Shown: in pieces, positions 55,939 to 64,000 of the stretch | Position numbering within the stretch: the first letter of the stretch is position 1 | Layout of the letters: the number at the start of each line of letters is the position of its first letter | From: an uncultured Maribacter sp. | GTDB lineage: Bacteria; Bacteroidota; Bacteroidia; Flavobacteriales; Flavobacteriaceae | Assembly: GCA_947504045.1 (NCBI GenBank) | Contig: CANNFY010000001.1 | Span: 930,001-994,000, forward strand | Direction: 5' to 3' | Length of the DNA stretch: 64,000 nucleotides | Notes under the pieces: model-generated | The model's input: the letters and a program-made list of their open reading frames with translations, nothing else | What the model was told of the DNA's origin: nothing | The model's database searches: none | Position numbers and translations under genes: made by a program

Positions 55939-57285
55939 TTATTTAACTAAGTTAATTTCAACTCTTCTGTTAGATTTTCTACCAGCTCTAGTATTGTTAG
56001 TAGCTATAGGCTTATCTTCTCCGTATCCGATAGCAGTTAATCTATCAGCACCAATACCTTTTTCAATTAAGAAATCACGTACTGAATTTGCTCTAGAGTC
56101 AGATAATTTTTGGTTTAATTTAGAACTACCAACGCTATCTGTATGACCTTCTACTGTAAATTTAGCATTAGGATACTCAGCTAAGATTGTAATAATATCA
56201 ACCATTACAGAAGTAGATTCCGCTTTGATAGAAGATTTACCTGTATCAAATAAGATAGTTCTAGCATATTCGTTTAATTGCTTTTGAACTTCTTCAGTTA
56301 CTTCAGGACAACCGTTGTTTGCAACAGTACCAGCAACTTCTGGACAAGCATCATCTTTATCTAAAACGCTATCTCCATCTTTATCAGCCCAAGGACAACC
56401 TTTGTTTTCAGCAGGACCAGCCTCTTCAGCACATTCGTCATCTTTATCAGCAACACCGTCACCATCAGCATCAGGACATCCAGCTAAAGCAGCTAAACCA
56501 GCAGCTTCTGGACAAGCATCATCTTTATCAGCAACACCGTCACCGTCAGAATCAGGACAACCATTCATTTCTTTAGTACCAGCAGCATTAGGACAAGCAT
56601 CTTTACTATCTTCTATACCATCACCATCAGCATCAGGACAACCGTTGAAAGCTTCTAAACCAGCAACTTCTGGACAAGCATCATCTTTGTCATAAACACC
56701 GTCACCATCAGTATCTGTACCACCAAATTTAATTGCTATACCAGCCATATGTTGCCAGTGTGGTGCTAAATAATCTTCAAAAGAGTGCTTGTAAGCAGTT
56801 TGTACTGTAAGACCAATGTTTTCTGTAAACCAAAAGTTTACACCAACACCACCGTTTGCTGTACCAGCTCCGATTTCATCAATCCAACTGTAACCACCAC
56901 CAACTTCAACGAAAGGATCGATACAAGTGTTTTTTAAGAAATTGTACTTAATAGTACCGTCAATACCATAGTAAGATAAATCAGCTACATCAGTATCTCC
57001 CCATTTAGTAATTTTGTTTAAAGAACCTCTTACTCCAACAGAAAAGCCATCGCTAACATTTTTAGACACCGCTATGTAAGATAGAGATGGTAAAATGTTC
57101 CAATGATCAGTTGCATTAAAAAGCTCATTTCCGAAAGAACTCCCTTCAAAGTCACCTGTTGGGTATACGTCTACTGCGTTAGCCCCAAAACTAACCTGCC
57201 ATGGGTTATTTTCGTCTTGCGCTTGTATGTTGTTAAAACCTACAACAAGTAGAGCAACAACCAATAATTTGCTAAGATGTTTCAT
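55939..57285 (-). CDS. OmpA family protein with thrombospondin type 3 repeats
   Basis: The 448-residue outer membrane protein has a signal peptide (cleavage near IQAQD), an eight-stranded barrel-like region (to about 195), five calcium-binding TSP3-like repeats with DxDGDGxxDxxDxCP (about 197-325) and a C-terminal OmpA peptidoglycan-binding domain (about 335-448, [29 protein letters not shown]). It links the outer membrane to peptidoglycan. It has its own promoter and terminator between the two recombination genes. Confidence 0.95.
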
Positions 57286-57349: not shown

Positions 57350-57476
57350 AATCAATTTCCTATTTTTTTTAACGTATTTTATAGAAAAAAGTATGCATTT
57401 TATCGAAATTTAACAATATTCATTACTGTAATTTTCCTATTTAGTATGTAAGTCTATATATAAGGCTTTCATTACA

Positions 57477-60695: not shown

Positions 60696-61304
60696 ATGGC
60701 TTTTGAATTACCAAAACTACCTTACGCTTATGATGCGTTAGAACCACATATTGATGCTAGAACTATGGAAATACACCATACAAAGCACCATAACGGGTAT
60801 ACAACAAAATTAAATGGAGCTATTGATGGTACTGCTTTAGCAGAAAAATCAATAGAAGAAATTTTAGATACTTTAGATATGTCTAATGGAGCTGTTAGAA
60901 ATAATGGTGGTGGTTTTTATAACCATTCTTTATTTTGGGAAATACTTTCTCCAAACGGTGGAGGAGAGCCTACAGGAGAATTAGCAAGTGCTATAACTTC
61001 TGCATTTGGTTCTTTTGAAGAATTTAAAAATAAATTTAGTACTGCTGCTGGAACAAGATTTGGTTCTGGTTGGGCATGGCTTTGTGTACATAAAGGTGGA
61101 AAAGTAGAAGTATGTTCTACACCAAACCAAGATAATCCATTAATGCCTGAAACTGGGTGTGGAGGTTTTCCTATTTTAGGTTTAGACGTATGGGAGCATG
61201 CATATTACTTAAATTATCAAAATAGAAGACCAGATTATGTTAATGCATTTTTTAATGTAATTAATTGGGATAAAGTTTCTGCTTTATATGAAGCTAATAA
61301 ATAA
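60696..61304 (+). CDS. Superoxide dismutase (Fe/Mn type)
   Basis: The 202-residue enzyme converts superoxide to oxygen and hydrogen peroxide. The metal ligands are all seen: His27 in [11 protein letters not shown], His in [10 protein letters not shown], and Asp and His in [28 protein letters not shown] is typical of the manganese or cambialistic type. It has its own promoter and a long terminator, so it is monocistronic. Confidence 0.95.
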
Positions 61305-61384: not shown

Positions 61385-61467
61385 AAAAGGGCGGAGAAGT
61401 CTCCACCCTTTTCGTCCCAAATCTTACCATAAACTTAACCTACTTATGCTATGGCAGCACTAAATTA
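61385..61467 (-). ncRNA. Tandem small RNA gene, copy A
   Basis: On the minus strand a 38-nt conserved block begins CCATAGC at 61454 (one base differs from the other copies), followed by a terminator hairpin GGGTGGAG-ACTT-CTCCGCCC (one G-U) and TTTT. Box TAATTTAG lies at 61467-61460, exactly 5 nt upstream of the block. The RNA would be about 70 nt. Function unknown. Confidence 0.65.
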
Positions 61468-61570
61468 CTGGTATTGTGGGACATAAAAAAGTAATTTTAA
61501 TTAATTTTTTTTGAGCTAATACGTAAAATTGACAGATTTATCTTGTTAAATGTCTGGTTTTCAGCAATGA

Positions 61571-61652
61571 AAAAGGCGAAGCATAGCTCCGCCTTTTTCC
61601 CCCAAATCTTACCATGAACTTAACCTACTTATGCTATGGTTCTCCAAAAGTA
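61571..61652 (-). ncRNA. Tandem small RNA gene, copy B
   Basis: The conserved block starts at 61639, and the hairpin AGGCGGAG-CTATG-CTTCGCCT with T run ends the RNA. Box TACTTTTG at 61652-61645 is 5 nt upstream and matches TAnnTTTG exactly. About 69 nt. Confidence 0.7.
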
Positions 61653-61786
61653 ATGTAAAGTACTAAAGCTTAAAAAGGTATTAGATAAAGCAACCATATC
61701 TTTAGTTAAAGTGCTAAATATTGCCTTTGGGTAGTTAATTTGTATAGTTGTTTGGAAATATCACTATATAAGAGAAGTATATAAAA

Positions 61787-61869
61787 ATAAAAAGACGAAG
61801 CAATGCTCCGTCTTTTCCCCAAATCTTACCATGAACTTAACCTACTTATGCTATGGTCCTTCAAAAGTA
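61787..61869 (-). ncRNA. Tandem small RNA gene, copy C
   Basis: The conserved block starts at 61856. The hairpin reads AGACGGAGC-ATT-GCTTCGTCT, in which an A-T pair replaces the G-C pair of copies B and D. Box TACTTTTG at 61869-61862 is 5 nt upstream. About 70 nt. Confidence 0.7.
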
Positions 61870-61972
61870 AATTCTTTTTTTATTACTGCCATTTGTTTTA
61901 GGTAAACGTACTATATATATAGTTATATGGTATTTTATGCAATAAAATAAACATTGTTTAGGTATATAAAAT

Positions 61973-62056
61973 AAAAAAGGCGGAGAAGTCTCCGCCTTTT
62001 TTGCCCCAAATCTTACCATGAACTTAACCTACTTATGCTATGGCAAAACTAAAATA
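61973..62056 (-). ncRNA. Tandem small RNA gene, copy D
   Basis: The conserved block starts at 62043 and the hairpin AGGCGGAG-ACTT-CTCCGCCT is perfect, with six T after it. Box TATTTTAG at 62056-62049 is 5 nt upstream. About 71 nt. It is the copy nearest the purF-type gene. Confidence 0.7.
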
Positions 62057-62100
62057 GTCTTGTACCATACCATAGTAGCATATTGCCGCTGAAATGTACT

Positions 62101-62144
62101 TTTTATCGATGAAATACACAATCGTGTGCATTTCATCGATAAAA
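62101..62144. repeat. Long inverted repeat downstream of the purF-type gene
   Basis: TTTTATCGATGAAAT (62101-62115) pairs perfectly with its complement (62130-62144), with an inner ACAC/GTGT pairing. It sits 2 bp after the stop codon (minus strand), so it is probably the 3' end or terminator of that transcript, though without a T run beyond the stem. Confidence 0.55.
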
Positions 62145-62146
62145 TC

Positions 62147-64000
62147 TTAATAAGCCCTTTCGTTTTTACCTTCATAAAAGTTAATAAAAGCTTTATTAAC
62201 AACTCTGTTTCCTCCAGGAGTTGGATAGTTTCCTGTAAAGTACCAGTCTCCTAGGTTTTTTGGACAGGCTTCATGTAAACTTTCTATAGTTTGGTAGATG
62301 ATATCTACTTTAGCTTTTATTTCTGGTGGACTAAGTAATTCTCCAATTTTCTTTGATATTTCTAAAGCTGTAAAAGGAGCATAAAATTCTTTTACATAAT
62401 TTATTACATCTTTATCGTCGGATGTAATTTGTAATTTACACTTGTTGTAAATGTCTTCTACAACATTCATGGTGTTATTCTCTTTATGTAATTCTAATGC
62501 TGCTCTAAACGCTATAAAGTCTTCTAGTTTTGCCATATCTATACCATAGCAATCCGGATATCGTATTTGTGGAGCAGAAGAAACAACAATAATTTTACCA
62601 GGATCTAAACGATCTAAAATTCTTAAAATACTTTTTTTAAGTGTTGTACCTCTTACAATACTATCATCTATAATTACAAGGTTATCTCCTTTTTTTACAG
62701 AGCCGTAAGAAATATCATAAACATGAGCTACTAAGTCATCTCTACTACTGTCTTGTGTAATAAATGTTCTTAGTTTGGCATCTTTAATTGCTACTTTTTC
62801 TATTCTTGGTCTTACTTTTAAAATTTCATGTAACTCTTCACTTGTAATAGCACTACCTAAGGCTAAAATTTGCTCTTCTTTCTTTTTGTTTAGATAGTTT
62901 TGTGCTTCTTTAACCATTCCAAAAAAGGAAGTCTCAGCTGTATTTGGTATATAAGAAAATACAGTGTTTTTAATATCATTATTAATAGATTTTAAAATTT
63001 GAGGAAATAATAGTTTTCCTAATTCCTTTCTCTCTTGGTATATTTCTTTATCACTACCTCTAGAAAAATAAATACGTTCAAAAGAGCATGCTTTTCTTTC
63101 TGTAGGCTCTAAAATGGGTTTAATTGCTGATTGCCCACTTTTTTTAATAATTAATGCGTGTCCAGGATCTATTTCTTGAACAGACTCGTAAGGCACATTA
63201 AATACAGTTTGTATTACGGGTCTTTCAGAGGCAACTACAACAACTTCGTCGTCTTTATAATAGTATGCAGGTCTTATTCCTCCTGGGTCTCTAAGTACAA
63301 AAGCATCTCCATGCCCTAATAATCCGGCCATTGCATAACCTCCATCAAAATTCTTTGCAGCACGTTTTAAAATTTTAGATACTTTTAAACGCTCTGCAAT
63401 TAAAGGAGAAGCCTCTCTTTTAGTATATCCTTCTTTTTTTACTTGTTTATAAATTTTAGCAACCGCATCATCTAAAAAATGACCAATTTTTTCCATAACA
63501 GTAACGGTATCTGCCATTTCTTTTGGGTGTTGCCCTATGTGTACAAGATTGTCAAAAAGCTCATTAACATTAGTCATGTTAAAGTTACCTGCAACAATTA
63601 AATTACGGTGCATCCAGTTATTTTGTCTTAGAAAAGGGTGCACACTTTCTATACTATTTTTACCAAAAGTACCGTAACGTACATGCCCTAACAATAATTC
63701 TCCTATATAAGGTATGTTCTTTTTTTGTAAAGCAACATCGTCTAAATATTCTGGGTGTTCTTTAAAGGCATTATTTATTCTTTGGTTTACTTGTGCAAAG
63801 ATATCTTGTATAGGTTGCTGCTGTGCAGAACGTACTCTACTCATATACCTTTCTCCAGGCTCCATGTCTAATTTAATACTAGCTAAACCAGCACCATCTT
63901 GTCCACGATTGTGCTGTTTTTCCATCATTAAATACATTTTATTTACACCATAAAAAGCGGTACCGTATTTTTCTTTATAATATTCTAGGGGTTTTAGTAA
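62147..64000 (-). CDS. purF: Amidophosphoribosyltransferase (N-terminus beyond the window)
   Basis: The frame continues to base 64000, so 617 residues are visible and the extreme N-terminus, including the catalytic Cys of the glutamine amidotransferase domain, is missing. MEKQHNRGQDGAGLASIK belongs to the amidotransferase part, and VIIDDSIVRGTTLKKSI near residue 425 is the PRPP-binding phosphoribosyltransferase motif. It makes phosphoribosylamine, the first step of purine synthesis. It is longer than E. coli PurF (505), with several insertions, as in other Bacteroidota. Confidence 0.88.
   Translation of the reverse strand, partial: LLKPLEYYKEKYGTAFYGVNKMYLMMEKQHNRGQDGAGLASIKLDMEPGERYMSRVRSAQQQPIQDIFAQVNQRINNAFKEHPEYLDDVALQKKNIPYIGELLLGHVRYGTFGKNSIESVHPFLRQNNWMHRNLIVAGNFNMTNVNELFDNLVHIGQHPKEMADTVTVMEKIGHFLDDAVAKIYKQVKKEGYTKREASPLIAERLKVSKILKRAAKNFDGGYAMAGLLGHGDAFVLRDPGGIRPAYYYKDDEVVVVASERPVIQTVFNVPYESVQEIDPGHALIIKKSGQSAIKPILEPTERKACSFERIYFSRGSDKEIYQERKELGKLLFPQILKSINNDIKNTVFSYIPNTAETSFFGMVKEAQNYLNKKKEEQILALGSAITSEELHEILKVRPRIEKVAIKDAKLRTFITQDSSRDDLVAHVYDISYGSVKKGDNLVIIDDSIVRGTTLKKSILRILDRLDPGKIIVVSSAPQIRYPDCYGIDMAKLEDFIAFRAALELHKENNTMNVVEDIYNKCKLQITSDDKDVINYVKEFYAPFTALEISKKIGELLSPPEIKAKVDIIYQTIESLHEACPKNLGDWYFTGNYPTPGGNRVVNKAFINFYEGKNERAY

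Follow-up and report, generated by a model that had tools for sequence, protein, structure and literature searches.

What are the four short, almost identical units that lie in tandem on the minus strand between a purF-like gene and a superoxide dismutase gene (sod) in a 64,000-nt stretch of DNA from an uncultured Maribacter sp. (contig CANNFY010000001.1, positions 930,001 to 994,000; the whole stretch is referred to here as the window)? Based on the sequence, we read the units as a response-regulator-controlled, multicopy family of trans-acting small RNAs (sRNAs), and we assign this reading a probability of about two in three (0.68). The proposed RNA is short and nearly invariant, is encoded in most of the Flavobacteriaceae sampled, and comes with a candidate regulator, operator and regulon genes. 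Flavobacteriaceae account for a large share of marine and freshwater bacteria, post-transcriptional control in this family is almost unexplored, and the RNA provides a testable, so far overlooked regulatory RNA candidate.

The array, its conserved unit and its spread

The four units were located at positions 61385-62056 of the window with start-to-start spacings of 185, 217 and 187 nt. In order of transcription, and all on the minus strand, these are copy 1 (61973-62044, with 62044 as the presumed +1), copy 2 (61789-61857), copy 3 (61570-61640) and copy 4 (61385-61455). A covariance model built from 45 sequences (R1) recognized exactly four strong units in the window, with scores of 103.1, 79.5, 85.4 and 93.7 bits for copies 1 to 4, respectively; the next-best match (23.3 bits) was a terminator seen from the opposite strand. 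The assignments were also based on the fold of each copy and, for copy 1, on sequence. Within a 38-nt block three copies were identical, and copy 4 was found to differ by one base (C to T before ATGG, giving TTTATGG) and to have GGGA just outside the block where the other copies have GGGG. The 23-nt pattern CCATAGCATAAGTAGGTTAAGTT, allowing up to 3 mismatches, matched four times in the window and was not detected in 100 dinucleotide shuffles. These four copies were the only ones found in the window's own genome (3.46 Mb, 99.7% complete) at up to 3 mismatches.

Each unit of about 70 nt was predicted to form a 5' hairpin with a near-invariant core, followed by a GAUUUGGG tail and an intrinsic terminator. 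By this prediction, ACCAU and AUGGU close the 5' hairpin, the loop bears AGUAGGUUAAGUU, and an unpaired GAUUUGGG(G)C tail leads into the terminator hairpin, with z values of -3.75 to -4.82 for the four copies. Across 66 copies from 31 loci, the information content was about 2 bits from CCAT through GGGG and dropped steeply on both sides. ACCA, AGTAGGTTAAGTT, ATGGTA and ATTTGGG were the invariant parts, with ATGG unchanged in all 66 copies, and the 5' side of the loop was variable in the more distant copies. Compensatory changes were detected in the terminator stem: 9 of the 21 pairs in the alignment had changed on both sides, 8 of these 9 in the terminator. The inner pairs of the 5' hairpin near the loop were kept with little variation in the 45 aligned sequences and, because these pairs hardly vary, this helix is untouched by the covariation test. 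A fixed inner stem was disfavoured by variants with different 5' loop sides. A 1-nt indel within the unit (GTAAGATTT/GTAGATTT) and a variable A run were found to shift the frame between and within genomes; since the indel shifts every frame, the unit appears to hold no coding frame.

The unit was compared to known RNAs. No Rfam 15 family reached its gathering score in the 64-kb window, and the core without the terminator (61995-62046) gave no Rfam match at E values up to 10. Under permissive settings 70 matches were obtained (STnc40, sraA, FopS and others), all far under gathering, and those viewed as alignments rested on the terminator; homology to these families was rejected, as nothing was left once the terminator was omitted. 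Flavo-1, the family to which an earlier note on this DNA (made from the letters alone) had pointed, gave no gathering-level match in the 64 kb and was not among the 70 permissive matches, so that the Rfam check proposed in that note returned no known family. FopS (RF04319) was set aside individually: the window copy scored 20.3 bits (E 1.9) compared to a gathering score of 56, and the FopS model was positive in the Bacteroides control only, with matches in none of six genomes of the window's own order. No account of the RNA was found in the published literature, covered as open-licence papers without supplements, and some RNA-seq table may list it under no name. The available portions of two papers report sRNA candidates of Flavobacterium columnare (PMC5395568) and 85 new Rfp RNAs of Flavobacterium psychrophilum (PMC9723704), and either set may hold the RNA unrecognised.

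The distribution of the unit follows the family Flavobacteriaceae. The pattern CATAAGTAGGTTAAGTTCATGGTAAG, at up to 3 mismatches, matched 230 of 299 genomes of this family (205 of 249 good assemblies) with 1 to 7 copies per genome, and its reversed control was absent among the matches listed. The pattern AGTAGGTTA..ATGGT..ATTTGGGG was present in 50 of 62 genomes of the family compared to 0 of 284 genomes from other families of the order. When a class-wide sample of 295 genomes was scanned with R1, scores above 70 bits were obtained in six genomes, all Flavobacteriaceae, and scores elsewhere did not exceed 41 bits. The matches in other families of the class, at 25-41 bits (33-41 bits again when loci L041-L047 were rerun), are taken as terminator-driven. 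Many terminators of other Bacteroidota (L061-type and other class-level matches) fall in this range of 25-41 bits with R1, which cautions that models bearing a terminator overcall. A scan of a named collection returned at least 118 stretches, and 75 of the 80 listed titles were Flavobacteriaceae genera or the family itself, the remaining 5 being loosely named metagenome-assembled genomes (Bacteroidetes, Bacteroidota, Bacteroidia and Lentimicrobium).

Taken together, a multicopy sRNA family is supported as the best reading of the array, because the ~70-nt unit is conserved without its spacers, the terminator helix has compensatory changes, promoter boxes lie at a fixed distance (see below), a coding frame appears to be absent and no Rfam family matches. 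This is what the earlier note had proposed. Its account of four tandem minus-strand copies at the above spacings, with a single base difference in one 38-nt block, agrees with the coordinates; the hairpin with terminator and the promoter-like box that it had ascribed to every copy were recovered for all four; and the conservation of the unit but not of the spacers extends across the family.

Promoter boxes, double sites and a candidate orphan LytTR regulator

A TAnnTTTG box was found at -19 to -12 relative to CATAAG in 66 copies. As described in the available part of PMC9723704, such boxes sit at -12 to -5 from the transcription start, and the predicted +1 therefore falls on the A (or G) of (A/G)CCAU, at the start of the conserved unit. 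In the window the box precedes all four copies, although at two it has degenerated to TAnTTTAG.

In most copies of the RNA family, a pair of direct repeats spaced by about 20 bp lies upstream of the TAnnTTTG-like box. A 16-bp half-site, TGCATTTCATCTAATA, was fitted to 121 upstream regions as a direct repeat, and the layout of a LytTR site was found after fitting in 114 of these 121 copies, with a period of 20 in 100 and of 21 in 14. Individual sites such as GCCGTTCATCC, as well as the half-site, resemble the CCGTTCGTC of AlgR. LytTR regulators, according to the accessible text of PMC4064291, bind two imperfect direct repeats of 8-13 bp that are about 12 bp apart. In the window, the position weight matrix (PWM) gave 24.7 for a double site upstream of copy 1 (62083-62118, minus strand; TGTATTTCATCG ... 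TACATTTCAGCG, period 20), 17.2 upstream of copy 3 (61679-61715, minus strand; period 21), 8.4 upstream of copy 2 (61896-61932, minus strand; one good half, GTACGTTTACCTAAAA, and a score short of significance) and -0.4 for copy 4, which starts at 61455, high scores at sRNA promoters being circular because the PWM was fitted on these promoters themselves. LytTR-type repeats thus appear clear at two of the four copies, weak at one and absent at one. These sites are an addition to the earlier note, in which they are absent. Its statement that the sequences between copies are unrelated holds for the most part; the exceptions are the common TAnnTTTG-like box and the LytTR-type direct repeats at the copies starting at 62044 and 61640.

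By eye, the 3'-most copy (the T variant) of this clade lacks a LytTR double site and has a putative promoter, CAATACCAGTAATTTAG, that is conserved (window 61400-61560; loci L029, L030, L067, L069 and L070). Since it has its own promoter and no double site, this copy may be expressed under conditions that differ from those of its sister copies.

Based on the likeness of the half-site to that of AlgR and on the direct-repeat rule, LytTR genes were compared across five genomes (14, 7, 1, 10 and 10 genes). One ortholog group was present in all three RNA-positive genomes and in neither of the RNA-negative ones. Two half-sites 19-23 bp apart were detected upstream of only 2 of the 42 LytTR genes, both from this three-member ortholog group, and the two promoters had PWM scores of 17.5 and 17.2 compared to a maximum of 5.9 among the 39 LytTR genes outside the group. 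Among 33 orthologs, 17 had a double site in the regulator's own promoter at a shuffle p ≤0.037 (15 of the 30 orthologs beyond the first three), compared to 1 of the 39 other LytTR genes. The regulator protein has a receiver (PF00072) and a LytTR domain (PF04397), both over cut-off. Its gene stands alone, divergent from genes that we take, by eye, to be rpsF, rpsR and rplI, and no kinase gene was seen at the locus.

Co-occurrence of regulator and RNA was examined in 60 genomes chosen by RNA pattern status, 30 with and 30 without the pattern. The ortholog was found in all 30 RNA-positive genomes (58-97% identity). Of the genomes RNA-negative by pattern, 7 of 30 had the ortholog (52-60%) and 23 had paralogs only, at ≤42%. 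Model R1 then recovered the RNA in five of these 7 (G193, 93 bits; G087, 81; G053, 71; G273, 71; G199, 46). Genome G792 has the ortholog and, in the usual position, a degenerate RNA copy whose double site is intact, G010 has the ortholog and no RNA, and G188 has no ortholog at E 1e-40 and an RNA copy of 67 bits with an altered, degenerate tail. In the final table of 60 genomes, 36 had both genes, 1 the LytTR gene only, 1 the sRNA only and 22 neither (Fisher 3.6e-14, or 4.3e-13 when G792 was counted RNA-negative), values that overstate the support, given that RNA status guided the sampling and that the genomes share ancestry. To judge from the sequences of G188 and G792, regulator loss and RNA decay go together. 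Extra close paralogs of the regulator (65-86% identity) were noted in G212 and G056, and in G056 one of these adjoins the ortholog.

Proposed action of the RNA and rival readings

We infer a mechanism in which most copies of the family would be transcribed from their own promoter and activated by the one orphan LytTR response regulator, which would bind the pair of direct repeats, spaced by about 20 bp, immediately upstream of the -7 box. In the window array, the last copy would use a different promoter, without a double site. The regulator would also bind its own promoter in many species and the promoter of an ompA-like gene in close relatives. The RNAs would act in trans, with copy number setting the dose, and the exposed loop and tail would most likely pair with mRNA leader regions. 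This pairing step is the weakest part of the proposal, and we put it at somewhat less than an even chance.

Similar arrangements are known in other bacteria. The streptococcal Cia-dependent small RNAs (csRNAs) are encoded by several paralogous sRNA genes, with one response regulator, of OmpR type with hexamer repeats, binding direct repeats upstream of each. The Vibrio Qrr RNAs have sigma-54 promoters under LuxO, are Hfq-dependent and are encoded at separate loci. Several paralogous genes with separate promoters and terminators, as in these two systems, were also found here on sequence alone. The array RNA resembles the csRNAs in having paralogous genes under one response regulator with upstream direct repeats (here predicted), but csRNA genes are scattered, their regulator is of another type and there is no sequence relation. 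It resembles the Qrr RNAs in its multiple copies, almost invariant core, predicted response-regulator control and feedback on the regulator (here only suggested), and differs from them in locus arrangement and in the sigma-54/LuxO system. RNAIII under AgrA is a single, long, partly coding RNA with the regulator gene in the same locus, unlike the array RNA; common to both would be a regulatory RNA promoter with upstream direct repeats for a LytTR activator (here predicted). AgrA binding sites of Staphylococcus aureus are treated in the available part of PMC4227749, and csRNAs and Qrr sRNAs are named in that of PMC11697453. Within the phylum, FopS of Bacteroides (RF04319), as portrayed in the same part of PMC11697453, is likewise a multicopy sRNA with a single-stranded seed followed by a terminator, but its copies are dispersed and its conserved sequence is different. 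Rfp18 of F. psychrophilum is similarly a conserved sRNA of the same bacterial family; in the accessible text of PMC9723704 it pairs via a third stem-loop, whereas the array RNA has two, a distinction drawn by description only.

Complement searches in 8 genomes, duplex energies and counts of the longest match at each of 393 gene starts pointed to no clear antisense target. The perfect complement of the loop 10-mer, expected 4.4 to 9.8 times in the window's own genome (Markov models), was found there and in G032 solely in sRNA genes, whereas six other genomes held a few additional ones. The tail complement GCCCCAAAT was seen 17 times compared to 13 to 26 expected. Many of the low duplex energies reflect CAU of the RNA pairing with start codons. 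The ompA-like mRNA was set aside as a target, its leader having no more than a 7-nt AT-rich match.

Several results weigh against a regulator-controlled RNA that acts by pairing, in addition to the circular PWM scores and the selection of related genomes by RNA status mentioned above. The double site is missing from 16 of the 33 ortholog promoters, including those of the inferred Flavobacterium group, whose sRNA genes have it. A 400-kb portion of the own genome held 10 sites at PWM scores ≥13 compared to 12, 6 and 9 in block shuffles and thus no excess. Complements of the core at the 393 gene starts were no better than in two controls (9 nt, 3 vs 2 and 2; 8 nt, 24 vs 17 and 15; 8 or 9 nt together, 27 vs 19 and 17), and by duplex energy the own LytTR leader came no higher than 17th among 87 gene starts of its genome. 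For the target step, where the earlier note had suggested an antisense or protein-binding site, our analysis tentatively prefers antisense action over the alternatives, by analogy with other multicopy sRNAs.

The target results would also suit RNAs that serve as decoys, whose identical copies offer AGUAGGUUAAGUU and GAUUUGGGG to titrate an RNA-binding protein, similar to CsrB and CsrA, and which act on no mRNA. Loop and tail are nearly invariant across the family, well beyond the needs of a single seed, the copies have multiplied in tandem, the perfect loop complement is absent outside the sRNA genes of the own genome and G032, and antisense matches at gene starts equal the controls. One site per RNA is, however, poor for titration, no protein partner is known (and none was sought), and the missing 10-nt complement fits off-target avoidance by an antisense RNA equally well; we regard decoy action as unlikely, though worth keeping in view. 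To our knowledge, bacteria of this kind are mostly without CsrA, and if the RNAs are decoys, the phylum would have an RNA-binding regulator that has so far escaped notice. A wider form of this idea, in which the LytTR regulator would turn on 1 to 7 identical RNAs across the family as a dose-tuned decoy, whose loop and tail sequester an RNA-binding protein and thereby determine outer membrane composition (ompA and other regulon members), is speculative and slightly less likely again.

It is similarly doubtful that negative feedback is the main task, with the RNAs pairing with the leader of the LytTR mRNA as Qrr does with luxO. In the own clade, GATTTAACCCCACAAATC, a complement of the tail with a 2-nt bulge, is conserved in the LytTR leader; in the G154 group, the leader has retained CTTAACCTA, which complements 9 nt of the loop perfectly, at 3 of 4 loci; and 12 of 28 leaders had better duplex energies than their shuffles (p ≤0.05). 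Against this, the duplex test covered 28 of the 33 ortholog leaders, the pairing region varies by clade, and the own leader, at the rank given above, has a p of 0.155. If the units were only decaying duplications of a transcription terminator or attenuator that serves the purF-like gene, and specified no RNA of their own, this would account for their place downstream of that gene on the same strand and for their terminators. It would not account for the constant distance of the promoter box, the conservation of a 5' part that termination does not require, the copies away from purF (L198, L237 and L284) or the double sites in common with the LytTR gene, and we consider such an origin very improbable. 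The least probable reading is a short peptide encoded from the conserved ATGGTA of each unit: the invariance of ATGG in 66 copies would agree with it, but the indel and the variable A run shift its frame. Thus, the array is best regarded as a putative multicopy, trans-acting sRNA family under LytTR control.

Genomic neighbourhood and candidate regulon genes

The purF-like amidophosphoribosyltransferase gene lies upstream of the array on the same strand (62147-63937, minus strand, with the frame open to the window edge; TIGR01134 at 123.7 bits, under the curated cut-off of 350), and the Fe/Mn superoxide dismutase gene sod is convergent with the array (60696-61304, plus strand; PF02777 and PF00081). 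Among 65 family loci from genome searches, the purF-like gene was present in 64, and both genes were found within 3 kb in 57. The at least 118 named stretches included 82 with the convergent order (purF upstream and sod downstream), 16 further with purF upstream and 8 without purF despite room, among them L255, where an additional copy precedes purF; the remaining stretches stop before the order can be judged. Complete arrays among the stretches listed had 1 (25 arrays), 2 (44), 3 (10), 4 (2) or 5 (1) copies, 2 being the commonest. The earlier note had raised the possibility that the block occurs mainly in mobile repeats. The loci are syntenic and viral contigs gave no matches (phage and plasmid collections lay outside this search), and a mobile element was rejected on these two grounds.

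In genomes that were RNA-negative or of doubtful status, 24 purF loci were inspected, and five of these have sod as the neighbour of purF. The purF-sod gap is 84 (G010), 74 (G113) and 112 (G131) without the RNA, and 316 (G792, degenerate copy) and about 950 (G188) with it. The terminator stem CCCCAAATC/GATTTGGGG in the 84-bp gap of G010 (L365), a genome with the LytTR ortholog and no RNA, has the sequence of the sRNA tail, as a remnant or by chance. Extra sRNA copies beyond the purF-sod gap (before purF, on the far side of sod or on other contigs) were observed at L255, L291, L198, L237 and L284 and in G212 and G225. Between the purF-like gene and the array of the window lies an inverted repeat (62101-62144); one arm contains GTGCATTTCATCGATAAAA and the opposite arm its mirror, and thus two facing copies of this LytTR-like element follow the purF-like gene.

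An OmpA/TSP3 outer membrane protein gene (55939-57285, minus strand; PF00691 and PF02412) is a putative regulon member. About 90 bp upstream of it lies a LytTR-type double site in reverse orientation (57373-57409, plus strand; PWM 23.6), the only other strong double site in the window; a single one-strand shuffle had none at ≥14. Of the 11 closest orthologs, 8 retain this site, at position -92 or -112, and it was absent from the 19 others. The three best of the 10 sites in the 400 kb of the own genome are intergenic (24.9, 18.9 and 17.0), and the other seven lie within genes. The genes beside the three intergenic sites are presumably mpl, a surface protein gene and a gene for a 43-aa membrane peptide. 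In G000 (C1, ~265736-266010; L357-L358), a double site was observed before a predicted membrane peptide of 43 aa (MEQEITFGTKLLNGFLSLTVIVLAGILLTVALCLILWAAGVF), with a SusC-like gene downstream of the peptide.
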